In this document: positions 17,971 to 52,487 of the stretch, piece after piece
How positions within the stretch are numbered: position 1 is the stretch's first letter
How the letters are laid out: each line of letters starts with the position of its first letter
Source: Aerococcus sp. HMSC062A02
GTDB taxonomy: Bacteria > Bacillota > Bacilli > Lactobacillales > Aerococcaceae
Reading direction: 5' to 3'
NCBI RefSeq assembly: GCF_001809535.1
Contig: NZ_KV797910.1
Location: forward strand, 270,560-334,559
DNA length: 64,000 nucleotides
Notes under the pieces: generated by a model
Database searches by the model: none
What the model saw: only the letters and a program-made list of their open reading frames with translations
What the model was told of the DNA's origin: nothing
Made by a program: the position numbers and the translations under genes

Positions 17971-20900
17971 TTGGAAGAGAAGAAAGAAGCTTTTAACCGT
18001 TTGCTTAAGCAAATTAATTTTTCAGATTCCGATCCAAATTTTCAGGCGGGTTGGATTGACCATGTGACCGTCCATACCAAGTCTCGCCTTTATCAATTTA
18101 CCCTAGCTTTTCCCAAGCATATAAAGGCTAGTCAATTTAAGGCCCTGGAAGAAGCTTTGCAAGTTGGCTTCCAGTCGATTGCTAAGGTTGACCTAGGCTT
18201 GACCTGCTCTAAGGCAGAGGACTGGGAGGCAGAGGAGGTTCTGGCTTATTGGCCCGTGGTAGTTGAACGCAGTCATATCTCTAATGGTCTCGCCCAACAG
18301 ATTCTAACCCAACAATTGCCGACTTGGGAGGGGGGAAAGTTTATCTTAAGGGTGGACAACCCGCAAATTCAAGCCTTTTTAGAGACTAATTATTTAGAGG
18401 TAATCAAACAGAATTACTTTGTCCTTGGTTTTTCTAACCTTCGCTTTCAAGTGATTGTGGATGAAGCCACGGCCAATGACCGCCAAGCCCAGTTTGAAGC
18501 TCGCCAGGAACAATTGGAACGCGAACAGCAGGAACTGGCAAAGCAGGCCAGTGTTCGCCAGGCCAAGGAAGCTAAGGACAAACCCCGCCCTAGTAAATTA
18601 GCGATCGGGCGATCTGTTCCCGTAGATAAGCTCCAACCCATGCGCTCTTATGTAGAGGAACAATATGGGGCTACCATGGAAGGGGTTATTTTCGAAAAAG
18701 AAGTCCGAGAATTGAAAACGGGGCGGCGGATTTTGAATTTGAAGTTCTCTGACTATACCTCGGCTTACTTGGTCACTATGTTCTCACGCAATGATGAGGA
18801 TATTGCTGTCTTTGAAGGTCTAGAAGAAGGGATGTGGATTCGTGTCCAAGGGGAAATCCGGATGGACGACCGTTTTGCCCGCGATTATGTGCTGATGGGG
18901 CGTGACCTGGAAGTTATCAATAAGGAGGGGCGCAAGGACCAGGCGGAGGAAGGCAAGAAGCGGATTGAACTTCACCTTCATTCCAATATGTCAGCCTTAG
19001 ACGCAACCAATACCATTTCAGACTTTGCCGCCCAAGCCAAGGCCTGGGGACAGCCCGCCATTGCTGTTACGGACCACGGCAATGTCCAAGCCTTCCCTGA
19101 GGCCAGTCAGGCTGCCAAGGCCAACGATATTGCCATGATCTACGGCTTAGAAGCTAATGTTGTGGATGACGGGGTACCGATTGCCTACAACCCTCAAGAT
19201 GTGGATCTGAGCGAGGCCCATTATGTCGTTTTTGACGTGGAAACAACGGGCTTGTCTGCTGCCTATAATCATATTATTGAATTAGCGGCAGTCAAGATGT
19301 ACAAGGGCAATGTCGAAGAGACCTTTGAGGAATTTATTAATCCAGGCTACCCCTTGCCTGCCCATATTATTGAACTAACTAAGATTACTGACGCCATGCT
19401 ACAGGGGGCTAGGTCGGAAGAAGATGTGATGGCAGACTTTCAAAAATTCTGTGAAGGCTGTATCCTAGTTGCCCATAATGCTTCTTTCGATATGGGCTTT
19501 ATCAACAAGGCCTACAGCCGCCATGGCATGCCTGAAGCGGATAATCCTGTCATTGATACGCTGGAACTCTCGCGCTTCCTCCATCCTAATATGAAGTCCC
19601 ACCGACTCAATACCTTAGCCAAGCATTATAATGTTTCCTTGGAGCAACACCACCGGGCGATCTATGACTCGGAAACAACCGGGGCCTTGGCTTGGATCTT
19701 TGTCAAAGAAGCGGCCAAAAACCATGATATCCACTCCCACAAGGATCTTAATCAGGATGTCGGCAAGGGGGATGCCTATAAGCACGGCCGTCCTTTCCAT
19801 GTGACCATCTTGACTAAGAACCAAGCAGGGCTCAAAGACCTCTTCAAACTCGTCTCTGCTTCTAATGTGGATTATTTCTACCGGGTGCCCCGCCTGCCCC
19901 GCTCACTCTTAGCTGACCACCGGGAGAATCTCTTGCTCGGTTCGGCTTGTTCTTCGGGTGAATTCTTCGAAGCCGTGATGCAGAAGGGCAAGGAAGAAGC
20001 CAAGCGGGTGGCAGAATTCTATGATTACCTGGAAATTATGCCTAAGGGGGTCTACAAGCCTCTGATTGAAGATAATTTAATCCACGATGAGGCAGAGCTT
20101 GAAGAAATTATGAAAACCATTATTGAAATCGGCGAAGAGCTTGATAAACCAGTAGTAGCAACGGGGGATGTCCACTACCTAAATCCTCAAGACAAGCTCT
20201 ACCGGGAAATTTTAATTAATTCGATTAAATCTAACCGTACCAAGTTTTTCCCCGAAGCTCACTTCCGGACGACAGACGAAATGCTCCACGACTTTGCCTT
20301 CTTAGGGGAAGATAAGGCCTATGAAATTGTGGTAGAAAATACCCACAAAATTTTTGACCAGATTGAATTTGTGGAGCCCCTTAAGGATAAACTCTATACC
20401 CCAAATATTGATGGGGCAGAAGATGAAATCCGGGAAACTTCCTACCGCGAGGCTCATGCCCTTTACGGAGAGGACTTGCCTGAAATTATCGAGAAGCGTC
20501 TAGAAAAAGAACTGACCTCGATTATTGGTAATGGTTTCTCAGTGGTTTACCTGATTTCTGAAAAATTAGTAAAAAAATCCAATTCAGACGGCTACATTGT
20601 TGGGAGTCGGGGGTCAGTGGGCTCTTCCTTTGTCGCTACCATGCTGGGAATTACCGAGGTTAACCCCTTGTCCCCCCACTATGTTTGCCCGAATTGTTTT
20701 TACAGCCACTTCTTTACGGATGGTAGTGTCGGCTCTGGATTTGACTTGCCAGACAAGGACTGTCCAGAGTGTGGACACGCCCTGAATAAAGATGGCCACG
20801 ATATTCCATTTGAAACTTTCCTAGGCTTTGCGGGGGACAAGGTACCAGATATCGACTTGAACTTCTCGGGTGAATACCAGCCCCAGGCCCATAACTTCAC

Positions 20901-22269
20901 CAAGGTCATGTTCGGGGAAGACCATGTCTACCGAGCAGGAACCATTTCTACAGTGGCTGATAAAACGGCTTATGGTTATGTCTTAGGCTATGACCAAGAC
21001 CATAATTTGAACCTTAGAAAAACGGAAAAAGATTTTCTCGCTAAGCACACAACCGGGGTCAAACGGACCACTGGCCAGCACCCAGGGGGGATTATTGTTA
21101 TTCCGGAATACATGGATGTCTATGACTTTACGCCAGTCCAATACCCTGCCGATGACTTGGATTCAGAATGGAAGACCACCCACTTTGACTTCCACTCCAT
21201 CCATGATAATGTTTTGAAGCTCGATATTCTGGGCCATGATGATCCGACGGTTATTCGTAAGCTGCAAGACTTATCCAACATTGATCCAAAAGATATTCCC
21301 ATGGATGATGATGATGTCTACAAGCTCTTCAATGGGACGGAGATCCTAGGTGTTCGTCCAGAAGATATCTTTTCCAAGACGGGGACACTGGGGATTCCTG
21401 AATTTGGGACCTCCTTTACCCGGTCGATGCTAGAAGCTACCCATCCCTCGACCTTTGCGGAACTTCTCCAAATTTCTGGACTCTCCCACGGGACAGATGT
21501 TTGGTTAGGTAATGCGGAAGTCTTAGTTAGAGAGAAGGGCATGCCACTGTCAGAAGTGATTGGTTGTCGGGACGACATCATGGTCTACCTCATCCACCAG
21601 GGGGTTCCTGAACGTGATTCTTTCCAAATTATGGAAAAGGTACGTAAGGGTAAGGGGCTGTCTGATGAACACAAGGCCATTATGAATGAGCACCAAGTTC
21701 CCCAGTGGTATATGGCGTCCTGTGAAAAAATTAAGTACATGTTCCCTAAAGCCCACGCAGCAGCTTATGTAATCAATGCTATCCGGGTGGCCTGGTTCAA
21801 GGTCCACCATCCCATTTGGTATTACTGTGCTTATCTCAGTGTCCGGGCTAATGACTTTGACCTCGTCGCGATGGCGAATGGCCTTCAGTCAACGAAGACA
21901 GCTCTCAAGGCGATCTATAGTAAAGGTAATGATGCGACGGTCAAAGACCATGCAGTCCAGGTCGTCTTAGAAATTGTCAATGAAATGTGGGAACGAGGCT
22001 TTAATTTTAAGATGGTTGACCTCTACAAGTCTGATGCCCAAGACTTTGTAATTGAAGGGGAAGATACCTTGATTGCCCCCTTTAGAGCCATTCCGGGCTT
22101 AGGGCTCAATGTGGCCAAACAAATTGTTAAGGCTCGCCAGGAGTCCGAATTCTTGTCCAAGGAAGACCTTAAGAAGCGGGGCAAGGTCTCCCAGTCGACG
22201 ATCGACTTTATGTCTGAGCAGGGTATCTTAAATGGCTTGCCAGAAGAGAACCAACTTTCTCTCTTCTAG
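17971..22269 (+). CDS. polC: DNA polymerase III alpha subunit, PolC type
   Basis: The replicative polymerase of low-GC Gram-positives, with built-in 3'-5' exonuclease. 1432 residues. The order is: N-terminal domain; OB fold (about 225-320); PHP domain starting at ELHLHSNMS (about residue 332), interrupted by the exonuclease domain with DVETTG (D422, E424); PHP resuming with FHVTILTKN; a zinc module CPNC...CPECGH near residue 906; the palm with PDIDLNFSGEYQ; and the fingers. The start is TTG at 17971, with AAGGAG 7 bases upstream; no ATG fits. It ends in NQLSLF, a probable clamp-binding peptide of the QxxLF type. Confidence 0.97.
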   Translation: MEEKKEAFNRLLKQINFSDSDPNFQAGWIDHVTVHTKSRLYQFTLAFPKHIKASQFKALEEALQVGFQSIAKVDLGLTCSKAEDWEAEEVLAYWPVVVERSHISNGLAQQILTQQLPTWEGGKFILRVDNPQIQAFLETNYLEVIKQNYFVLGFSNLRFQVIVDEATANDRQAQFEARQEQLEREQQELAKQASVRQAKEAKDKPRPSKLAIGRSVPVDKLQPMRSYVEEQYGATMEGVIFEKEVRELKTGRRILNLKFSDYTSAYLVTMFSRNDEDIAVFEGLEEGMWIRVQGEIRMDDRFARDYVLMGRDLEVINKEGRKDQAEEGKKRIELHLHSNMSALDATNTISDFAAQAKAWGQPAIAVTDHGNVQAFPEASQAAKANDIAMIYGLEANVVDDGVPIAYNPQDVDLSEAHYVVFDVETTGLSAAYNHIIELAAVKMYKGNVEETFEEFINPGYPLPAHIIELTKITDAMLQGARSEEDVMADFQKFCEGCILVAHNASFDMGFINKAYSRHGMPEADNPVIDTLELSRFLHPNMKSHRLNTLAKHYNVSLEQHHRAIYDSETTGALAWIFVKEAAKNHDIHSHKDLNQDVGKGDAYKHGRPFHVTILTKNQAGLKDLFKLVSASNVDYFYRVPRLPRSLLADHRENLLLGSACSSGEFFEAVMQKGKEEAKRVAEFYDYLEIMPKGVYKPLIEDNLIHDEAELEEIMKTIIEIGEELDKPVVATGDVHYLNPQDKLYREILINSIKSNRTKFFPEAHFRTTDEMLHDFAFLGEDKAYEIVVENTHKIFDQIEFVEPLKDKLYTPNIDGAEDEIRETSYREAHALYGEDLPEIIEKRLEKELTSIIGNGFSVVYLISEKLVKKSNSDGYIVGSRGSVGSSFVATMLGITEVNPLSPHYVCPNCFYSHFFTDGSVGSGFDLPDKDCPECGHALNKDGHDIPFETFLGFAGDKVPDIDLNFSGEYQPQAHNFTKVMFGEDHVYRAGTISTVADKTAYGYVLGYDQDHNLNLRKTEKDFLAKHTTGVKRTTGQHPGGIIVIPEYMDVYDFTPVQYPADDLDSEWKTTHFDFHSIHDNVLKLDILGHDDPTVIRKLQDLSNIDPKDIPMDDDDVYKLFNGTEILGVRPEDIFSKTGTLGIPEFGTSFTRSMLEATHPSTFAELLQISGLSHGTDVWLGNAEVLVREKGMPLSEVIGCRDDIMVYLIHQGVPERDSFQIMEKVRKGKGLSDEHKAIMNEHQVPQWYMASCEKIKYMFPKAHAAAYVINAIRVAWFKVHHPIWYYCAYLSVRANDFDLVAMANGLQSTKTALKAIYSKGNDATVKDHAVQVVLEIVNEMWERGFNFKMVDLYKSDAQDFVIEGEDTLIAPFRAIPGLGLNVAKQIVKARQESEFLSKEDLKKRGKVSQSTIDFMSEQGILNGLPEENQLSLF

Positions 22270-22310
22270 GGTTCAAGCAAGCGGATTGTTCGCTTTCTTT
22301 CAAATGGTTA

Positions 22311-22362
22311 TGCTATGATAGTAACGTAGGTCTATTAATAAATGAAAAAGCCAATAATTGGC
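22311..22362 (+). promoter_or_regulatory. Promoter and palindromic site of the PII/DUF1538 operon
   Basis: An extended -10 box TGCTATGAT (22311-22319), then 30 bases later a perfect palindrome GCCAATAATTGGC (22350-22362) within the untranslated leader. The palindrome is a candidate operator. No regulator gene is adjacent. Confidence 0.45.
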
Positions 22363-22398
22363 CTAGAATAAGAAACGTTAAGGAAAGGAGTTGTGACA

Positions 22399-22713
22399 GT
22401 GAATACAGGGAAAGAAATGCTTATGGTCATTGTAGACCGTGATACCAGTGATGAAGTGATCGAGGTAGCCCGGCAAGCCGGCGCTCAGGGAGCAACTGTG
22501 CTTCATGGCCGCGGCACGGGGCATGAGGACAAGCTATCGGCCTTCCATATCCATGTCGAACCACAAAAAGAATTGGTTATGATGGCAGTCGAAGCTGACC
22601 AAGTAGATGGTATCAGCCAAGCGATAGCTGAAGCCTTGGACTTTAACCAACCAGGGACTGGGATCCTCTTTAGTCTACCGATCAATGAAACGACTGGACT
22701 ATATGAAGGATAA
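22399..22713 (+). CDS. PII-like signalling protein, short T-loop
   Basis: 104 residues with the ferredoxin-like PII pattern: strand MLMVIVDRDTSDEVIEVARQ, the turn GAQGATVLHGRGTG where GlnB has GMTV..VRGFG, a central strand ELVMMAVE, and the C-terminal PGTGILFSLPI where GlnB has GDGKIFV. The T-loop is much shorter than in GlnB/GlnK, the uridylylated Tyr is missing, and several ATP/2-oxoglutarate residues are not kept. GTG at 22399 lies 8 bases from AAAGGAG (22385-22390), better than GTG at 22393. It starts an operon with a duplicated membrane protein and a second, tandem PII-like protein. It probably gates the membrane protein; ligand unknown. Confidence 0.75.
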   Translation: MNTGKEMLMVIVDRDTSDEVIEVARQAGAQGATVLHGRGTGHEDKLSAFHIHVEPQKELVMMAVEADQVDGISQAIAEALDFNQPGTGILFSLPINETTGLYEG

Positions 22714-22751
22714 ATTTGAAAGAAAAAACATGAGAGAAAAAGGAGGACTTT

Positions 22752-24221
22752 ATGGATGTTTTAATCGATAAGTTCAAAGAGGTAGCTTTTTCTGTCATTC
22801 CGCTAGTTGTTATTGTTTTATTAATATCAATGTTTGCTGTTAACGTACCTTCTACCATGATGATGAGTTTCGTCATTGGGGCAGTATTGATTTTAGTGGG
22901 ATTGACCATCTTCCTCTTTGGCATTGAAATCGGGATGACGCCGATCGGCAACCACTTAGGAGCCCATGTGGCAGGAAGCCCCTCACGAATTGCCATTGCT
23001 GTTTTGAGTTTTATTATTGGTTTTGCGGTAACGATAGCAGAACCAGACTTACTAATTCTCGGCCAGCAAATTGAAAATGCAACTTCGGGTGTCTTGCCCG
23101 GTACAGTGACCGTAGTGGCTGTCTCTGTCGGAGTCGGTGTTATGATTGCCTTTGGGGTCTTCAGATTGTTGAAGAACTTTCCCTTGAAATATTTCTTCGC
23201 CATTGTTTATGCTTTGATTCTTATCTTGGCTATTTTTTCCGATAATTCGGCTATTGCTATGGGCTTTGATGCCTCAGGTGCAACGACAGGAGCTTTAACG
23301 ACGCCCTTTATTTTGGCCTTATCGGGAGCTCTAGCAGCTAAAGCTGGGGGCAAACAAGCAGAAGAAAACTCCTTCGGTCTAGTTGGGGCGATGTCAACTG
23401 GTCCTATTCTGGCGGTGCTTTTCTTAATCCTCTTTTCCCAAACGGACTTGCAGGCAGCTGAATCAACGGTGGAATATTCGAACAGTGTAATCGCCCCCAT
23501 CCTTGCTGCAATCTGGCCGACTTTGAAAGAGTCCTTGATTGCCCTGGTTCCGATTGTTTTATTCTTTATCTTTATGAATTGGCGCTACTTTAAGTTGAAG
23601 GGCCAAGAACTCGGCGATATCTTTAAAGGGATTATCTATACAGTTGTTGGTTTGACCATTTTCTTAGTTGGCGTTAACCAAGGTTTTATGGATATGGGCC
23701 ACTTCTTAGGCCAAGCCATTGCCGAAATGGGTGATTGGTGGCTGATTATTGCTGGCTTTACCCTAGGTATGGTGGTTGTTCTAGCTGAACCAGCTGTCCA
23801 CGTTCTGGGTGAGCAGGTGGAAGACATCACTGGGGGCCATATCCACAACAAAGTCCTGATGGGGGCCTTGTCTATCGGGGTTGCCCTAGCTGTAGGACTT
23901 TCTATGGTGAGAATTTTAAATAGTAATTTAGCCATCTGGCACTTCTTATTGCCAGGCTTTGGACTAGCTATCCTCTTATCCTTTATGGTACCAAATCTCT
24001 TTACCGGGATTGCCTTTGATGCGGGTGGGGTAGCTTCGGGCCCGATGACTGCTACCTTTATCTTGGCTTTTGCCCAGGGTGCAGCGGACTTCCTACCCAA
24101 TGCCGATGCCCTGGATGCTTTCGGCGTCATAGCTTTTGTTGCTATGGTACCCGTGGTTATGGTAGAATTACTCGGCTTAGTCTTTAAGATTCAAACTAAG
24201 AAGACAGGAATTGAAGAATAG
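22752..24221 (+). CDS. Membrane protein with two DUF1538-like repeats; putative transporter or channel
   Basis: 489 residues, about twelve hydrophobic segments. It is an internal duplication: VGLTIFLFGIEIGMTPIGNH aligns with VGLTIFLVGVNQGFMDMGHF, TIAEPDLLILGQQIE with VLAEPAVHVLGEQVE, and FDASGATTGALTTPFILA with FDAGGVASGPMTATFILA. This matches what I recall of the DUF1538 family, which has no proven substrate. The AEP and FDxxG(x)xxG motifs repeated in both halves suggest an ion or metabolite path at a pseudo-twofold axis. The start at 22752 has AGGAGG (22741-22746). It is flanked on both sides by PII-like genes, the pattern seen for PII-gated transporters such as AmtB-GlnK. Confidence 0.75.
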   Translation: MDVLIDKFKEVAFSVIPLVVIVLLISMFAVNVPSTMMMSFVIGAVLILVGLTIFLFGIEIGMTPIGNHLGAHVAGSPSRIAIAVLSFIIGFAVTIAEPDLLILGQQIENATSGVLPGTVTVVAVSVGVGVMIAFGVFRLLKNFPLKYFFAIVYALILILAIFSDNSAIAMGFDASGATTGALTTPFILALSGALAAKAGGKQAEENSFGLVGAMSTGPILAVLFLILFSQTDLQAAESTVEYSNSVIAPILAAIWPTLKESLIALVPIVLFFIFMNWRYFKLKGQELGDIFKGIIYTVVGLTIFLVGVNQGFMDMGHFLGQAIAEMGDWWLIIAGFTLGMVVVLAEPAVHVLGEQVEDITGGHIHNKVLMGALSIGVALAVGLSMVRILNSNLAIWHFLLPGFGLAILLSFMVPNLFTGIAFDAGGVASGPMTATFILAFAQGAADFLPNADALDAFGVIAFVAMVPVVMVELLGLVFKIQTKKTGIEE

Positions 24222-24243
24222 AAAGGGGTTGTCAACTAGCCTA

Positions 24244-24912
24244 ATGGAAACCGTATTATTCTTAGCAGTCGTCAAGGCTGGGACCGCGAGCCAATTGATT
24301 AAAGCGGCTAAAGCAGTTGGGGCGCCAGGAGGCACAGTGATTCGTGCGGAAGGTACAATCAGCAGTCGCCTGGCCCATGCCCTCGGCTTTCACGATTCCA
24401 AACGCGAAGTCGTTTTGATTGCGGTGGATAAGTCCCTAGAAGGTCGCCTCCACCAAGAATTGAATGACAAATTGAAGCTCGATCGCAAAGGTAAGGGGGT
24501 CCTCTTCTCCTTTGATATTTCTAGCTTCCAGGGCAGTAAGCAGATTAACAGCCCATTTGATGAAAGCCAGGTAGAAGCTTCCGATAGCCAGCTGATGACG
24601 GTTATTGTTGACCGGCAGATGGGCGACCAAGTGGTAGAAGTTTCCCGTGAAGCCGGTGCCCGAGGTGCAACGATCCTGCACGGGCGTGGAACAGGTGTGC
24701 ATGAGACGGGCAAGGTCTTTAACTTCCCGATTGAACTCGAAAAAGAGATCGTGGTTATGGTGATCCCAAGCGCTCTCGTTCAAGAAATTTCAGATAAAAT
24801 TATTACTGAAACAGACTTATGCAAACCAGGGCGCGGGATTTTGTTCACTGTGCCAGTGAATTCCAAACGTGGACTCGTTCCGCCTAAGCCAGCAGACGAG
24901 GCGTCAAGTTAG
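24244..24912 (+). CDS. Tandem PII-like protein (two domains)
   Basis: 222 residues made of two PII-like domains. Domain 1 (about 1-100) begins METVLFLAVVKAGTAS and ends KGKGVLFSFDI. Domain 2 (about 118-216) has LMTVIVDRQMGDQVVEVSRE, GATILHGRGTG and PGRGILFTVPV, and is close to the single-domain PII-like protein at 22.4 kb. Both halves lack a full T-loop. A fused pair could assemble as a pseudo-trimer with the single-domain protein, but that is inference. The start is uncertain: ATG at 24244 matches the PII N-terminus but is 15 bases from AAAGGGG; TTG at 24211 or 24229 are alternatives. It follows the membrane-protein gene by 22 bases. Confidence 0.72.
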   Translation: METVLFLAVVKAGTASQLIKAAKAVGAPGGTVIRAEGTISSRLAHALGFHDSKREVVLIAVDKSLEGRLHQELNDKLKLDRKGKGVLFSFDISSFQGSKQINSPFDESQVEASDSQLMTVIVDRQMGDQVVEVSREAGARGATILHGRGTGVHETGKVFNFPIELEKEIVVMVIPSALVQEISDKIITETDLCKPGRGILFTVPVNSKRGLVPPKPADEASS

Positions 24913-24983: not shown

Positions 24984-25010
24984 GAGTGAGCGGGAACGCT
25001 CACTCTTTTT
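24984..25010 (+). terminator. Terminator between the PII cassette and rimP
   Basis: GAGTGAGCG/CGCTCACTC (24984-24992/24997-25005), GGAA loop, TTTTT. A possible -10 box TATAAA lies just upstream (24957-24962), so it may sit inside the rimP leader. Confidence 0.75.
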
Positions 25011-25035
25011 CATGAAATAGAAAGTGGGGGATTGT

Positions 25036-30171: not shown

Positions 30172-31179
30172 TTAAGCTTGGGCGAGCTGGTCGTAGAGTA
30201 ATTGATAGGACCGGCGCCGGGCTTCTTGGTCTGCTAGAGGCGTGTAGATCATGATTTCATCAAATTGATAGCGATCTTTTTCTTCAAGCAGAATGTCGCG
30301 TACTTCTTCGGCCGTCCCCTTGACGAAGATACGTTGTTTTTCTTGTTCTTGGATAAAGTGCTCGGCTTGAGGGGATAAGTTGATACCCGCAGCTTCTTCG
30401 GCAGATAAGATGGGATTAAAGCGGTTCTGCGCCTGTTCGAAGCGGGCAATTTCCAAGGACTTGGCTTGGTAGTCCGCTTCCTCACGGCTGTCTGCTGCAA
30501 CCACCATATAGGTCGACATGGTTTGTGGTTCTTGGTGGAAGGCACTAGGGCGGAAGCTTTGCCGGTAGTGGGTGAAGATATCTTCCGGTGCCTTAACACC
30601 GAAGAACTTGGCAAAGCTATAGCCCATTCCTAAACGTCCACTATGGCCGGCTGAGTTACCGCTTGAGCCTAGCATCCAGGCTTGGGGCAGGCTTTCAAGT
30701 CCCTGGGGCGAGGCTTCAATCCCTTGATAGAGAGGATCGGTTCGGTCTTCTTCACTGATGAATTGGAGGATGGTCGCTGTTTTTTGGTAGAGGTCATCCG
30801 GCCAGTGGGGATCACCTTGGCCCAGGGCATAGATGGCCTGACGTCCTCCGCCTGGTGCTCGGCCAATACCGAGGTCCACCCGGTCAGGAGCTAAGGTGGC
30901 TAATGATTTGAAGACTTCAGCAATCTTCAGAGGGGAATAGTGCATGATCATGGTCCCTCCCGTCCCCACACGGATTTGTTGGCTAGCAGCAGCCACATAG
31001 GCAGCAAGGATTTCTGGAGCGGAAGAACCGTGCGTACCAGAGCCATGGTGTTCAGCGTACCAGATCCGCTGGTAGCCGATTTGGTCGAGGTACTGGGCGA
31101 GTTGGATACTGTCGGCATAGGCCTGGCTTAAGTTTTTATCCTTGGGCCGGCTAATGAGATCGAGAGCAGATAATTTCAT
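30172..31179 (-). CDS. Luciferase-like (LLM class) flavin-dependent oxidoreductase
   Basis: 335 residues of the bacterial luciferase-like fold, probably FMN-dependent. It begins KLSALDLISRP, then has RIWYAEHHG, the RVGTGGTMIMHYSPLKIAEVF block and RVDLGIGRAPGG, all usual for the MsnO8/YwcH-like subgroup of single-component LLM proteins. The substrate is unknown. The start at 31179 has GTAAGGAGGCC upstream on the minus strand. It stands alone, opposite to truB. Confidence 0.85.
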   Translation of the reverse strand: MKLSALDLISRPKDKNLSQAYADSIQLAQYLDQIGYQRIWYAEHHGSGTHGSSAPEILAAYVAAASQQIRVGTGGTMIMHYSPLKIAEVFKSLATLAPDRVDLGIGRAPGGGRQAIYALGQGDPHWPDDLYQKTATILQFISEEDRTDPLYQGIEASPQGLESLPQAWMLGSSGNSAGHSGRLGMGYSFAKFFGVKAPEDIFTHYRQSFRPSAFHQEPQTMSTYMVVAADSREEADYQAKSLEIARFEQAQNRFNPILSAEEAAGINLSPQAEHFIQEQEKQRIFVKGTAEEVRDILLEEKDRYQFDEIMIYTPLADQEARRRSYQLLYDQLAQA

Positions 31180-34420: not shown

Positions 34421-35908
34421 CTAAATTTCTTGTTTACTGGCTTGGACATTAATCGGCCGCTGGTCGTTTAAGAGGGGATCGTCGGGACTGAGTGCGGCTT
34501 TTTGGCGCTTGCCAGAGATCCAGTAGAGGACGAAAATAGCGGCTGTAATAATGAAACCTACAATATAGGTTGTTGTTGATAGGGACATTCTAAAGCCGAT
34601 TGGTTCGGTCAAGATATAAACCACTACTGCCAGTAACATGAAGAGGCTTGGAATCAGGGTGATTAAGTAATTGCGACTCTTGAGATAGAGGTAGCGGGTA
34701 GATACAAGAAGTGAAATTACAGCGGTCACTTGGTTGGCCCAGTTAAAGTAACGCCAGAGCACTTGGAAGTCCACGAAGGTGAGGACAAAGGAAATGGCGT
34801 AGAGGGGTAGGGTGATCGCTAGGATCTTTTTCATCGTATCTTGCTTAATGTTCAGGTAGTCAGCTAGGATAGCGCGCAGACTGCGGAAGGCAGAAAGTCC
34901 TGAAGAAAGCGGGAGGACGATAACTCCCATGATGGCTAGGGTACCGAAGATACTACCGAGCAGGAGATAAGAAACCTCATTAACGACAACAGATGGTGTA
35001 CCTGATGCAATCATTTCACTTAGGGTCTTACCGTCGAATAAGGTGAGGGAAGCCGCTAGCCAAATCATGGCAATGACTCCTTCAGCGATCATCATCCCAT
35101 AGAAGGTATACCGGCCCTCGCGTTCATTGGTCATCGTCCGAGAAACCATGGGGGCCTGGGTGGCGTGGAAGCCGGATAGGGCCCCACAGGAGATGGTGAA
35201 GAACATACCCGGGAAGATGGCTAATTTATCTGGGTGGAAGTTCTGCAAAGTAGCCAGGCTTAATTCAGGCATAGAGGCATGGTCGACCATAAGTAAGCGC
35301 AGGCCAATTGCAGCTGTCGAAATGATTAGGATAGCGCCAAACCAGGGATAGACCTTACCCAAGGCCTTATCAATCGGCAGGATGGTCGAAATCAGGTAGT
35401 AGATAAAGATAGCAATCACAATACCGATCAATGGGACGCCAGCGGGTAGGATTAATTTAATTAGGCTGGCGGGGGACATGACAAAGACCGTCCCGACCAG
35501 GAGAAGTAAGAGCATGGCGAAAATATTAACTACATGCTTGACAATATTTCCGAGATAACGTCCTGTCAATTCGGGTAGGTGAGCCCCATTATTACGCAGG
35601 GAAATCATCCCGATCATATAGTCATGGACAGCTCCCGCAAAGATGCAGCCAATGATAATCCAAAGATAGGCTACAGGACCGTAGAGGGCACCCATAATTG
35701 GGCCAAAAATTGGACCCGTTCCGGCAATATTGAGCAATTCAATAATGGCATTCTTCTGTTTAGACATGGGAACAAAGTCTAAGTTATCGCGGAGGGCCTC
35801 AGCCGGTGTTGTCCGGTTGGGTTCAATCTGGAAGTTCCGCTCGACAAAGCGCCCGTAAACAAAATAGCCAAGGATCAAGAGGGCAATGCCGCCTAAAAAT
35901 GTAAACAT
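34421..35908 (-). CDS. cstA: CstA-family carbon-starvation transporter (probable pyruvate or peptide permease)
   Basis: 495 residues, about twelve or more membrane helices. It has the CstA blocks IELLNIAGTGPIFGPIMGALYG (near residues 56-77), AGAVHDYMIGMISLRNNG and SCGALSGFHATQAPMVSRT. Family members include E. coli CstA and BtsT; BtsT is a pyruvate/H+ symporter under a LytS/LytTR-type system. The same kinase-regulator type lies just upstream on the same strand, which favours pyruvate or a related acid as substrate. A 157-base gap with a cre-like site precedes it. The start has AAAGGAGC upstream. Confidence 0.88.
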   Translation of the reverse strand: MFTFLGGIALLILGYFVYGRFVERNFQIEPNRTTPAEALRDNLDFVPMSKQKNAIIELLNIAGTGPIFGPIMGALYGPVAYLWIIIGCIFAGAVHDYMIGMISLRNNGAHLPELTGRYLGNIVKHVVNIFAMLLLLLVGTVFVMSPASLIKLILPAGVPLIGIVIAIFIYYLISTILPIDKALGKVYPWFGAILIISTAAIGLRLLMVDHASMPELSLATLQNFHPDKLAIFPGMFFTISCGALSGFHATQAPMVSRTMTNEREGRYTFYGMMIAEGVIAMIWLAASLTLFDGKTLSEMIASGTPSVVVNEVSYLLLGSIFGTLAIMGVIVLPLSSGLSAFRSLRAILADYLNIKQDTMKKILAITLPLYAISFVLTFVDFQVLWRYFNWANQVTAVISLLVSTRYLYLKSRNYLITLIPSLFMLLAVVVYILTEPIGFRMSLSTTTYIVGFIITAAIFVLYWISGKRQKAALSPDDPLLNDQRPINVQASKQEI

Positions 35909-35927
35909 ATAAAGTGCTCCTTTCTTA

Positions 35928-35941
35928 TGTAATCGCTTTAT
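35928..35941. promoter_or_regulatory. cre-like site upstream of cstA
   Basis: TGTAATCGCTTTAT matches the CcpA consensus TGWAANCGNTNWCA at 12 of 14 positions. It lies between the probable cstA promoter and its ribosome site, where CcpA binding would block elongation. Confidence 0.5.
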
Positions 35942-36065
35942 ATGTTGTTAGGATAGCATATTTTAAAGTTTTTTTAATCTTTTTGCCGCGAAATGACTAG
36001 GGAGACGCTTGAATTAACTAAATGCGCCAGTGAAATGCGGGCACTTGTGATCGCTTGTTTAGGAC

Positions 36066-36776
36066 TTAAAAACCCAACTTATCGCGGAAAATTTTTGTAT
36101 AGGACCGACTGACTGGAACCTTGAGCTGGTCTAGGCTGAGCATATAAGTTTGGTTGAAATAGGGTTCGATCCGTTTGATGGCAGATAAGCGGACGATATA
36201 AGAGCGGTGGACTTGGAGGAAATCTTGATCAGCTAGCTTTTCTGCAAAGCTCTTGAGGGTCTCTGAACTATTGTAAGCCTGAGCACTTGTGTAAAGAAGG
36301 GTATTGCCTGCTTCTGCTACAATGGCTTGGATGTCCGCTTGGTCGAGCAGGACAATGGCCTCTCCTTCCTGGACCGGAAAACGTTTGGGACTGGCTTCTG
36401 AACCAGCTTGCGGCCGCTTGACGAGGTGTTCAATCTTTTGGATACACTGCTCGATACGGTCTTCTTCGAAGGGTTTCATGATATAATCCACGGCATCCAA
36501 GTTGAAGGCATCCAGGGCATATTCCTGGTAGGCCGTCGCAAAGACCACTAGAGGGGGTTTGGGCATCTGCCGGATGACATCGGCAATTTTAAGGCCTGTC
36601 TCGCCTACTAACTGTACATCTAAAAAGACCAGGTCGATCTTCTGGCTTAAGAGCACTGTTAGGGCCTCTTCGACACTAGCCGCTTCTTCAATTTGCCAGT
36701 CTTTGCGTTGGTTATGGATGAGGTATTGGAGCTCGTCACGGGCTAGGGGTTCATCATCAACAAGTAAAAGATGCAT
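36066..36776 (-). CDS. LytTR-type response regulator
   Basis: 236 residues: receiver domain with acidic pair D7-D8, phosphoacceptor Asp53 (LVFLDVQL) and KPF near residue 102; then a LytTR DNA-binding domain (about 135-236: QADIQAIVAEAGNTLLYT, VHRSYIVRLSAIKRIEPYF, VPVSRSYTKIFRDKLGF). It starts at the A of the kinase stop (TAATG overlap), so the pair is translationally coupled. LytTR regulators bind tandem repeats; AAATGCG occurs twice 13 bases apart in the gap before cstA (about 36021-36040), but this does not fit the usual spacing well. Confidence 0.92.
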   Translation of the reverse strand: MHLLLVDDEPLARDELQYLIHNQRKDWQIEEAASVEEALTVLLSQKIDLVFLDVQLVGETGLKIADVIRQMPKPPLVVFATAYQEYALDAFNLDAVDYIMKPFEEDRIEQCIQKIEHLVKRPQAGSEASPKRFPVQEGEAIVLLDQADIQAIVAEAGNTLLYTSAQAYNSSETLKSFAEKLADQDFLQVHRSYIVRLSAIKRIEPYFNQTYMLSLDQLKVPVSRSYTKIFRDKLGF

Positions 36777-38485
36777 TAGTCATTCTTCCTTTCAATTGGG
36801 ATGAGGCAGCTCACTCGGGTGCCTGCCTGGGAGGTCTCGATGTCGAACTGAGCCTGGTCATTGTAGAGAGTTTTTAGTCGCTGGCGAATATTGTTGAGGG
36901 CCGTCCCGTTCCCCTTACTTGGAATGCTTTCATTATTAAAGATCGCCGCTAATTTATCCTCCCCTATGCCAGAACCATTGTCGCTGACACTTAAGGCCAG
37001 CTCTTGGTCTTGGACCTGTACCCTGATGGTCAGAGCCTGGTCGTTCTTGTTTGCCTTATTTTCAAAGGCGTGCTGGATAGCGTTCTCAACCAACATTTGG
37101 AGGACAAAAGGAGGAATTAAAAGATCCAGGCTCGCCGGATCGATTACTTTTGAGATTTGATAGCGGTCAGGGAAACGCGCCTGGATAATCGAGAGATAGG
37201 CTTGGATGTGTTCTAATTCTTGGCTGATGCTAATTTTTTCATTGCGGGCCCCATTCAGATTGGCCCGGAAATAGTGGCTCAATTCAATCAGAAGTTGTCG
37301 GGCACGGTTGGGATCTAAGCGCACTAAGGAACTGATGGTGTTCATGGCATTGAAGAAGAAGTGGGGGTTGACCTGGGCTTGGAGCGACTTAATTTCGGCA
37401 TCCTTCAAAAGCCGGGTGTTTTGGTCAGCAATTTTTAATTCGTATTGCATGGAGAGGATCTGGGAAAGCCCAAGGAGGATTTCTTCGATCAAGGGATTGG
37501 GTTCCGCATGGCTATTGAATTCTAGGATAAAAAGGCTGTGCAAGTCTTCCTTGACGAAGATGGGCAGGGAGAGGTAATCGCCGACTTGGATGAGCTGTCC
37601 AGCCTCGGCTTGGCCCTGGTAGGCTTGCCAAAAATCGCTGATTTGGTCACGGCTGAGGGCGAGTGACTTGGGATAGGCGTAGAGCTGGCTTTTGGGGCTA
37701 TAGACGGCGATGGCTTGGAGGTCGAAGCTCTCATAGAGTTTAAGTGAAATGATCTCCGCGCTCTCTTGGGTCATTTGACTGGAGAAGTAGGGCAGGATCT
37801 TTTGAGTCACCAGGAAAATATCCTTGGTCTGGGAAATCTTTGCCCACTCTAAATCGCGCAAGCTCTGCTGGATAACGCTCAAAAAAAGCCAGACCCCTAG
37901 CCCATCCGTTACTAGCATAGGTAGAGCGATAAGTTGGAGGAGAGATTGGGCTTCCTGGCTAGAAGGAGAGAGGAGGGCAATGAGGGACAATTGGATTAGC
38001 TCCAAGCCCATGAGCGAAAGAGCAGCCTGGCGGACTTGGATAGCCTTGAGCGAACTGGGAAAAAACTGACCTAGATAGGCTGCTGCTAAGCCGATACAGA
38101 GGGAGGATGTCACATAGATATATGCCGTATCCCCACCTTGGAGCCAGCGGATTAAAGCCGATAGACCTGCAATGGGCAAGCTCAGGGCAAAGCCACCAAC
38201 CAGACCTGCGATACCGATAATAACGACCCGGAAGTTAGCAATAGCAGAGCCCGCCTGGATGGACCAGGTGTGGACGGGGACAATCTCCCTTGAGGCAAGG
38301 ATTTCAATCCCAGAAATATTGGCAAAGACGGTGAAGGCAGCAAAGACGACCAATAAGACCAGGTAGTCTTTTTTTGATTGACGGTTGACCAGGGCCTCCT
38401 TGAAGCGGGGAATATAGAGTAGGGCGTAGGCGAGAAGAACCATCAAGCCGGCCCGCTCCATCAACAGCATAAAAAGTTCAAGCAT
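36776..38485 (-). CDS. LytS-type sensor histidine kinase
   Basis: 569 residues. The N-terminal half has about five to six hydrophobic segments of the 5TM-LYT type, then a GAF-like region (about 220-340). The HisKA-type block NPHFFFNAMNTISSL carries the phospho-His near residue 372, and an HATPase_c domain follows with QMLVENAIQHAFENK and NGSGIGEDKLA. It overlaps the regulator by one base. LytS-type sensors near CstA/BtsT transporters sense pyruvate in E. coli; in other bacteria they control murein hydrolases through lrgAB, but no lrgAB is seen here. Confidence 0.92.
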   Translation of the reverse strand: MLELFMLLMERAGLMVLLAYALLYIPRFKEALVNRQSKKDYLVLLVVFAAFTVFANISGIEILASREIVPVHTWSIQAGSAIANFRVVIIGIAGLVGGFALSLPIAGLSALIRWLQGGDTAYIYVTSSLCIGLAAAYLGQFFPSSLKAIQVRQAALSLMGLELIQLSLIALLSPSSQEAQSLLQLIALPMLVTDGLGVWLFLSVIQQSLRDLEWAKISQTKDIFLVTQKILPYFSSQMTQESAEIISLKLYESFDLQAIAVYSPKSQLYAYPKSLALSRDQISDFWQAYQGQAEAGQLIQVGDYLSLPIFVKEDLHSLFILEFNSHAEPNPLIEEILLGLSQILSMQYELKIADQNTRLLKDAEIKSLQAQVNPHFFFNAMNTISSLVRLDPNRARQLLIELSHYFRANLNGARNEKISISQELEHIQAYLSIIQARFPDRYQISKVIDPASLDLLIPPFVLQMLVENAIQHAFENKANKNDQALTIRVQVQDQELALSVSDNGSGIGEDKLAAIFNNESIPSKGNGTALNNIRQRLKTLYNDQAQFDIETSQAGTRVSCLIPIERKND

Positions 38486-51086: not shown

Positions 51087-52487
51087 ATGAATGATAAAGA
51101 GAAAGAAGCGAAGTTAAGTCAAATGAAAATATCAATTGTGGGGGCTGGAGCAGTCGGCTCCGCCTTATGCGAGGACCTTTCAAGTAAACAGTATGATGTG
51201 ACACTGATTGAAAAAGATGCTCATAAATTAGAAGACTTGCTTGCCAACTATGACATTATGGGAGTCTTGGGAAATGCAGCGACCATCAGCGTCTTAGAAG
51301 AAGCCAATATTAAAGACTGCGATGTCTTTATTGCAGTGACCAATTATGATGAAATCAACTTGATGGCCTCCATTGTGGCCAAGGAACTCGGGGCCAAGTA
51401 TACTATTGCCCGGGTGTCTAATCCGGAATATACGGATTATCTGAACTTCTCCAATGGCAAACTCGGGATTGATCTCATCGTGAATCCTGAGCTGGAGGCT
51501 GCGACTGAAATGCTCAATAACCTAGACTATCCCTCTGCCTTTAGCGTAGAATCCTTCTTCAGGGGCCGGGCACATCTGATTAGTTTGGATGTGAGTGAGG
51601 GTAGCCAGATTGATGGTTTGGCTCTCAGCCAGTTAGGAGCGGTCTTTGACCATATTGATAAGATCTTGATCTGCGTGGTGGAACGCCAGGGCGAAATCTT
51701 TATTCCTTATGGGGACTTCGTGATCCGGGCCAATGACCGGGTCTATGTGACAGGGGATTCCCAGCAATTGCGTGAGTTCTATAAGGTCCTAGGCGGCTCG
51801 ACCAAAAAGATCCGCTCGACCATGATCGTAGGTGCCTCCAATATCGCCTTCCACCTGGTGCCCAAACTTATCCAAAGAAAGATTGCCGTTAAGGTGATTG
51901 AGCGCAAGGAAGAAAAGGCTCTCCGCCTAGCTGCTGAGAATGAAGAAGCAGTGGTTATTGTCGGCGACGGGACCCATCCAGACCTCTTATTTGAAGAATA
52001 TTTGGAGAATTTTGATGCCCTCATAACCCTGACTGGGATTGATGAAGAGAATATTGTCTTATCTATCCTGGCCAAGCGCCTCGGTATCGGCAAGACCCTG
52101 ACTAAGATGGACCGGGTGGCCTTGATCGAATATACTGGTCTGATGGACCTGGAAACCGTAGTGATCCCCCACCAGCTCTTCGCGGACCGTATTATCCACC
52201 TGGTTCGCTCCTTTGTACGCTCCTATGGGTCTAATATTGAGAAGTTCTACCGCATTGCCAATAACCAGGTGGAAGCCATTGAGTTCACAGTGGCTTCGGA
52301 TTCGCGCTTGGTCGGTAAGTCCTTAATTGAAATTAACCTGGTCGACAATGTGATGATCGGGTCGATTTTTCGCCAGGGACAAATCATTATCCCGAGTGGC
52401 CATGACCAGTTACAGGCTGGCGACCGCTTGATCATCGTCGCCTACCAACGTGATATCTCCGACCTGGATGACATTCTAAGGGGGTAG
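51087..52487 (+). CDS. trkA: Potassium uptake regulatory protein TrkA
   Basis: A cytoplasmic gating ring for the TrkH channel. 466 residues in two RCK repeats, each with an NAD-binding Rossmann part (GAGAVGSALCEDL near residue 18; VGASNIAFHLVPKL near residue 249) and a TrkA-C domain (about 140-230 and 375-466). The start is uncertain: no clear ribosome site precedes ATG 51087, and orthologues begin nearer MKISIVGAGAVG (ATG 51123). It is coupled to trkH, 3 bases downstream. Confidence 0.92.
   Translation: MNDKEKEAKLSQMKISIVGAGAVGSALCEDLSSKQYDVTLIEKDAHKLEDLLANYDIMGVLGNAATISVLEEANIKDCDVFIAVTNYDEINLMASIVAKELGAKYTIARVSNPEYTDYLNFSNGKLGIDLIVNPELEAATEMLNNLDYPSAFSVESFFRGRAHLISLDVSEGSQIDGLALSQLGAVFDHIDKILICVVERQGEIFIPYGDFVIRANDRVYVTGDSQQLREFYKVLGGSTKKIRSTMIVGASNIAFHLVPKLIQRKIAVKVIERKEEKALRLAAENEEAVVIVGDGTHPDLLFEEYLENFDALITLTGIDEENIVLSILAKRLGIGKTLTKMDRVALIEYTGLMDLETVVIPHQLFADRIIHLVRSFVRSYGSNIEKFYRIANNQVEAIEFTVASDSRLVGKSLIEINLVDNVMIGSIFRQGQIIIPSGHDQLQAGDRLIIVAYQRDISDLDDILRG

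Follow-up and report, generated by a model that had tools for sequence, protein, structure and literature searches.

The window, a 64,000-nucleotide stretch of the genome of Aerococcus sp. HMSC062A02, carries a cassette of three co-directional genes on the plus strand in the order P-DD-PP, separated by intergenic gaps of 38 and 22 bp and situated between polC (17971-22269) and the rimP-nusA-rnpM-infB genes. The cassette and its immediate surroundings comprise:

22270..22392, plus strand: non-coding stretch 3' of polC that presumably holds the promoter (by eye, TATGAT near 22313)
22393..22713, plus strand: P, single-domain PII-like protein of 106 aa (GTG start, SD AAGGAG)
22752..24221, plus strand: DD, membrane protein of 489 aa made of two fused DUF1538 domains (PF07556 twice, E=4.3e-123)
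22764..23426, plus strand: first DUF1538 half of DD (NCBIfam UmpA E=1e-28, residues 5-225)
23553..24182, plus strand: second DUF1538 half of DD (Pfam, residues 268-477), predicted from loop charge to be inverted relative to the first half
24244..24912, plus strand: PP, tandem PII-like protein of 222 aa (Pfam P-II twice; SD GAAAGGGG at 24221-24228)
24244..24549, plus strand: first PII-like domain of PP, without the HGRG motif (model residues 1-102 match PII/SbtB)
24580..24885, plus strand: second PII-like domain of PP, with HGRGTG (model residues 113-214 match PII/CutA/SbtB)
24984..25012, plus strand: terminator-like hairpin GAGTGAGCG-GGAA-CGCTCACTC followed by a T-run, between the cassette and rimP

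The initial annotation had described three adjacent genes for a PII-like protein, a duplicated DUF1538 protein and a tandem PII-like protein, a layout with which the open reading frames and the Pfam domain counts agree; it had also started the cassette at 22311, which falls in upstream non-coding DNA, the first open reading frame beginning at 22393. The start of PP was set at the ATG at 24244, the mechanically derived frame beginning with a TTG at 24211. P and PP score 40.7 and 45.5 bits against the Pfam P-II profile (cut-off 25; E=3.2e-10 and E=1e-11, respectively), and DD scores 408.9 bits against DUF1538 (cut-off 22.6), in two copies. With these Pfam profiles, at the thresholds used, no further P-II or DUF1538 match was found in the 2.1 Mb genome of the organism; since the cassette proteins are its sole Pfam P-II matches, the search yielded no classical nitrogen PII. 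The nearest named DUF1538-PII loci are those of Aerococcus kribbianus and A. suis. A consensus scan of 22270..22392 revealed no strong promoter. The palindrome AAGCCAATAATTGGCCT, located 5' of the P gene at 22348-22364, is possibly a minus-strand terminator-like element or an operator, while the hairpin at 24984-25012 is perfect, occupies the position of a would-be rimP-nusA leader and has no Rfam match. Elsewhere in the window, a TrkA-type K+ uptake regulator (51087-52487) lies about 27 kb from the cassette, and the minus strand encodes an MsnO8-type luciferase-like oxidoreductase at 30172-31179, with infB and truB on either side. At 34421-38485 a CstA-like pyruvate/proton symporter (a weak match of 92 bits) adjoins a LytR/BtsR-type response regulator and is accompanied by a 569-aa open reading frame with no NCBIfam match at the threshold used; this frame is perhaps the kinase of the regulator, and the genes possibly form a pyruvate-sensing set.

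The PII fold of the small proteins is borne out both by Pfam and by an AlphaFold2 model of PP. The model (pLDDT 86.6, pTM 0.82) has a PII fold in both halves, which between them match PII, SbtB, CPII, PotN and CutA chains (Foldseek E 1e-5 to GlnK1; VIA-align Z of about 11-12 for each half), and its T-loop regions have low pLDDT. The HGRGTG turn, initially said to be kept in all three domains, is present in P and in the second domain of PP, but the first domain of PP reads IRAEGTIS at this place. P, which combines this turn with a short T-loop and the B-loop PGTGILF, resembles the second domain of PP. The T-loop is indeed shortened and devoid of Tyr in all three domains, but the description “very short” was an overstatement, the loop being only about five residues shorter than that of E. 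coli GlnK. In the PII alignment the Tyr51 column is mostly Phe, with no Tyr in the T-loops of the window, and the Lys58 column of GlnK is conserved. Nucleotide-site residues are partly kept: the GxG and the glycine pair of the B-loop are present, and the Asp-Gly-Lys of the GlnB B-loop and the C-terminal Arg are absent from this PII-like subfamily, whose consensus is GgTii.aRGsG.hE...F...IEPEKEivl ... PG.GI.F. A tree of 147 PII domains, built on few columns and leaving many forks unresolved, has a branch with support of 99 that divides the subfamily from the GlnB/GlnK rows; the first tandem domains mostly group together, and the window P clusters with its single-domain counterparts in other Aerococcus. 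The cassette domains are a distinct, dedicated PII subfamily within the PII superfamily. A CGPxGC C-terminal loop occurs in some SbtB; this motif is absent from the PII proteins of the window, whose gene partner is DUF1538 and not sbtA.

The substrate of the DUF1538 family had initially been taken as undescribed, a statement overtaken by published work on Halomonas zhaodongensis, where the heterodimer of two DUF1538 proteins, UmpA and UmpB, is a Na+(Li+,K+)/H+ antiporter and each partner is predicted to have seven membrane segments (PMC5484666). Full function was not obtained with UmpA alone or UmpB alone, umpA and umpB alone sufficed for activity in E. coli, and PII goes unmentioned in that paper (PMC5484666). 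UmpAB resembles the cassette in its PF07556 domains and in its two homologous halves, required together (PMC5484666), but it consists of two proteins, for which PII is undescribed, whereas the window encodes a single chain. Against the NCBIfam profiles UmpA (NF041627) and UmpB (NF041628) DD reaches 170 and 138 bits, the cut-offs being 490 and 500; with scores so far under these equivalog cut-offs it is filed as DUF1538 and not as UmpAB proper, and the substrate is transferred to it by family only. These scores, and the fact that a PDB sequence search with the DUF1538 profile returned no match and hence no solved structure, would suit a rather unlikely alternative in which Bacillota DUF1538 proteins carry a substrate other than Na+/K+/H+ and cation antiport is limited to the Halomonas branch. 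Against it, both DD halves align to UmpA over nearly their full length, and across the family the acidic motifs AEP and FD.(S/A)G..TG vary little or not at all. By analogy with UmpAB, we lean towards cation/proton exchange as the transport mode of the window protein. CLC-ec1 was considered as a membrane fold and was not significant (E 0.023, probability 0.28, rmsd 24); a fold search with the DUF1538 part of a natural fusion model (L098) returned no significant solved structure, its list being filled by the fused PII domain.

The orientation of the halves was assessed from K+R counts in the seven equivalent loops, compared half against half, with helix positions taken from the model. In the window DD the difference between the first and the second half over the seven loops is -3,+1,-1,+2,0,+2,-3; in fused proteins it runs -,+,-,+,-,+,-, with a positive alternation score in 76/76, and the same alternating pattern appears independently in 25 split DUF1538 pairs. 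The loop charges of 8 proteins from single-DUF1538 loci almost balance. As the positive-inside rule is an established relation of loop charge to membrane orientation, the alternation indicates that the two DUF1538 halves are inserted in opposite orientations, forming an inverted repeat, and that the C-terminus, which in fusion proteins carries the PII domain, is cytosolic; the single-DUF1538 form is probably of dual topology. The opposed orientation of the halves is a possible explanation for the incomplete function of UmpA or UmpB alone. EmrE, PsmrAB and DUF606 are dual-topology or paired small transporters that occur as single, paired and fused genes with opposed orientation. DUF1538 shares this gene series with them, but its units are larger (about seven segments each) and are accompanied by a co-duplicated PII regulator.

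The pairing of PII with DUF1538 is close to universal. Among 148 genomes of the order, a PII-like gene adjoins DUF1538 in 52/52 of those bearing DUF1538, recognized by Pfam P-II in 46 and by the subfamily profile in the others (G013, G106, G146, G058, G089 and G092); one genome with such a pair, G139, additionally has a separate DUF1538 fragment without adjacent PII on its contig 9. Adjacent PII open reading frames were present in 139 of 140 loci, 80 of which had been retrieved by DUF1538 alone with no PII in the query, and in the remaining one PII is fused to DUF1538. A further 60 loci included 58 with adjacent PII, the exceptions being one cut by a contig end and locus L186; the three sets partly overlap in genomes. 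Among the roughly 200 loci, three have no PII beside DUF1538: a contig cut, an orphan fragment and a true exception. The last is L186 (2340-3851), where the fused DUF1538 gene is intact but has no PII-like gene in its vicinity and could serve as a natural unregulated control. DUF1538 was found in 101/299 genomes sampled from the phylum, about one third, and the pairing spans five phyla; outside the phylum sampled it occurs in loci of Spirochaetota, Caldisericota and Actinomycetota (L103, L088 and L128), and a D-D-P arrangement is found on plasmids of Methylocystis and Chelativorans (alphaproteobacteria).

Such recurrence across loci excludes a chance origin of the pairing, and near-universal adjacency together with natural fusions upholds the original suggestion that PII is here paired with a membrane transporter. 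No third gene recurs among 113 flanking genes, the top family accounting for 3/113, and because the flanking genes do not recur, the cassette is self-contained. Public annotation already places a “P-II family nitrogen regulator” beside DUF1538, a name that is probably misleading here. Among the non-subscription papers searched, we found none that links PII with DUF1538. Phage carriage of the tandem PII was also considered and set aside, the matches in phage records being weak or in tiny unannotated records.

Fusions and domain numbers tie the two families still more closely. Twelve loci, all from metagenome-assembled genomes, encode DUF1538-DUF1538-PII in one open reading frame with a C-terminal PII domain (E 7e-12 to 4e-25), most of them with a separate PP gene upstream; in the model of the L098 fusion (pLDDT 88.4), SbtB is the nearest fold to the PII domain (Z 10.0). 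PII-domain numbers, counted at loci away from contig ends and with kinship ignored, track DUF1538: there is one PII domain in 9/11 single-D loci, one in 9 and two in 12 split D D loci, and among fused DD loci (n=111) two in 95, three in 15 and none in 1. The parallel duplication of transporter and regulator proposed at the outset therefore stands as regards numbers, while the pseudo-symmetry is one of inverted, not parallel, halves. Three-PII sets in the family of the window are arranged as P DD PP (the window and G083), DD PP P (G036) and DD PPP (G106 and G146), or are split, with DD P and PP elsewhere (G091) or DD PP and P elsewhere (G013). Subfamily PII genes away from DUF1538 were observed as L167 (G091:C1, ~242 kb) and L166 (G013:C20, ~128 kb), and these raise G091 and G013 to three PII domains each.

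That PII acts on DUF1538 is very likely. From the computed adjacency, fusions, folds and topology we further infer gating, substrate and ligand in this organism: it is rather likely that a dedicated PII-like sensor attaches to an inverted-repeat cation/proton antiporter on its cytosolic side and, depending on a cytosolic ligand, gates it. DD would be the one-chain counterpart of the UmpA/UmpB heterodimer, its two opposed homologous halves forming an inverted-repeat secondary transporter in which Na+/K+ is swapped for H+. The PII-like domains would bind the cytosolic face of DD and alter its activity, as GlnK does with AmtB and SbtB with SbtA, this effect being triggered by a small cytosolic ligand at the conserved B-loop/GxG cleft, the likeliest candidate being an adenine nucleotide that signals the energy or osmotic state. 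In AmtB-GlnK, too, the PII gene adjoins that of the transporter, which the PII gates; GlnK, however, is canonical, with Tyr51, a long T-loop and an ammonium channel as partner, whereas the cassette PII lacks Tyr51 and has a shorter T-loop. SbtA-SbtB likewise places the gene of an inverted-repeat Na+-coupled bicarbonate transporter beside a PII-like gene, and the SbtB T-loop goes into SbtA (PMC8352866). SbtB is among the nearest folds to the cassette PII domains, but it has a single domain where PP is tandem, SbtB-type C-terminal cysteines are absent from the cassette, and the searches made detected no relation of SbtA to DUF1538. Since in E. coli umpA and umpB by themselves give an active antiporter, the effect of PII would by analogy probably be a restraint of the antiporter. 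SbtB, CPII and PII, the closest folds, bind adenine nucleotides, and for this reason an adenine nucleotide is favoured as ligand, a proposal to which we give an even chance.

The PII-like proteins could alternatively be structural or assembly subunits, always bound and without a ligand switch, the degenerate first domain serving as a spacer. Natural DUF1538-PII fusions, the one PII domain without the RG turn and the pTM of PP, which suggests a fixed two-domain unit, are consistent with this view, yet we deem it improbable: umpA and umpB alone gave activity in E. coli (PMC5484666), the second PP domain retains the conserved GxG turn and the B-loop, and low pLDDT in the T-loop regions is expected for a mobile loop.

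Regarding the signal that a gating PII would read, the initial remark that no nitrogen gene lies nearby is true for the genes tested on both flanks of the window cassette, and this observation, the missing Tyr and the position of the subfamily apart from GlnB/GlnK all agree with the suggestion that the signal may not be nitrogen. The same three observations, together with the lack of any recurrent nitrogen gene in 113 flanks, make it very improbable that the cassette is a nitrogen module, with DUF1538 as a carrier of NH4+ (an analogue of K+) and the PII domains as sensors of nitrogen status, even though membership of the PII superfamily and the conserved Lys58 column would accord with it.

A different hint comes from c-di-AMP riboswitches (RF00379), which lie on the same strand directly 5' of the cassette at L220 (4249-4396, minus strand) and L061 (2952-3079, minus strand), two loci that are not related to each other. 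They were found 5' of the cassette in 2/218 loci with a strict core pattern that divergent copies may escape, and none was found in the genome of the organism itself; as a potassium/osmotic link they are a weak hint, noticed after the fact. In L039 such a riboswitch lies just downstream of the cassette. No Na+ (DUF1646) riboswitch was found near cassettes in 100 loci, and other Rfam matches near cassettes (RNase P, T-box, c-di-GMP, FMN, tRNA) were ascribed to neighbour genes. As a special case of ligand-gated antiport, the cassette might belong to the potassium/osmotic c-di-AMP network of Gram-positives, with c-di-AMP itself as the ligand. Its occurrence also in alphaproteobacteria, for which we know of no c-di-AMP synthesis, argues against this, as do the rarity of the riboswitch, spotted after a scan of all Rfam, and its absence from the organism's own genome. 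The two riboswitch-bearing loci favour it, along with the structure of SbtB with c-di-AMP (PDB 7obj), the existence of PstA, a PII-like protein that binds c-di-AMP (PMC4316997), and the carriage of K+ by UmpAB (PMC5484666). On balance we regard c-di-AMP as an unlikely ligand.

Within the preferred reading of a PII-gated antiporter, it is tempting, if tentative, to propose that an antiporter family and a branch of PII lying outside the control of nitrogen and carbon have evolved together. The series would begin with a dual-topology homodimer that has a single PII domain, pass through a paired form and end in one-chain antiporters with a two- or three-domain PII. Three non-equivalent PII domains may then assemble into one asymmetric pseudo-trimer on the asymmetric transporter, candidates being P + PP in the window, PPP in G106, G146 and L122, and PP together with the fused P in Clostridia. 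Such a pseudo-trimer would read adenine nucleotides and set Na+/K+/H+ exchange.

PII proteins are textbook sensors of nitrogen and carbon. The results presented here point to a widespread and apparently undescribed DUF1538-PII switch for sodium/potassium-proton exchange. If this is true, PII signalling would enter pH and salt homeostasis, a regulator would be at hand for testing on DUF1538 antiporters, and the forms with single, paired and fused genes would provide a natural series for the joint evolution of inverted-repeat transporters and their regulators.
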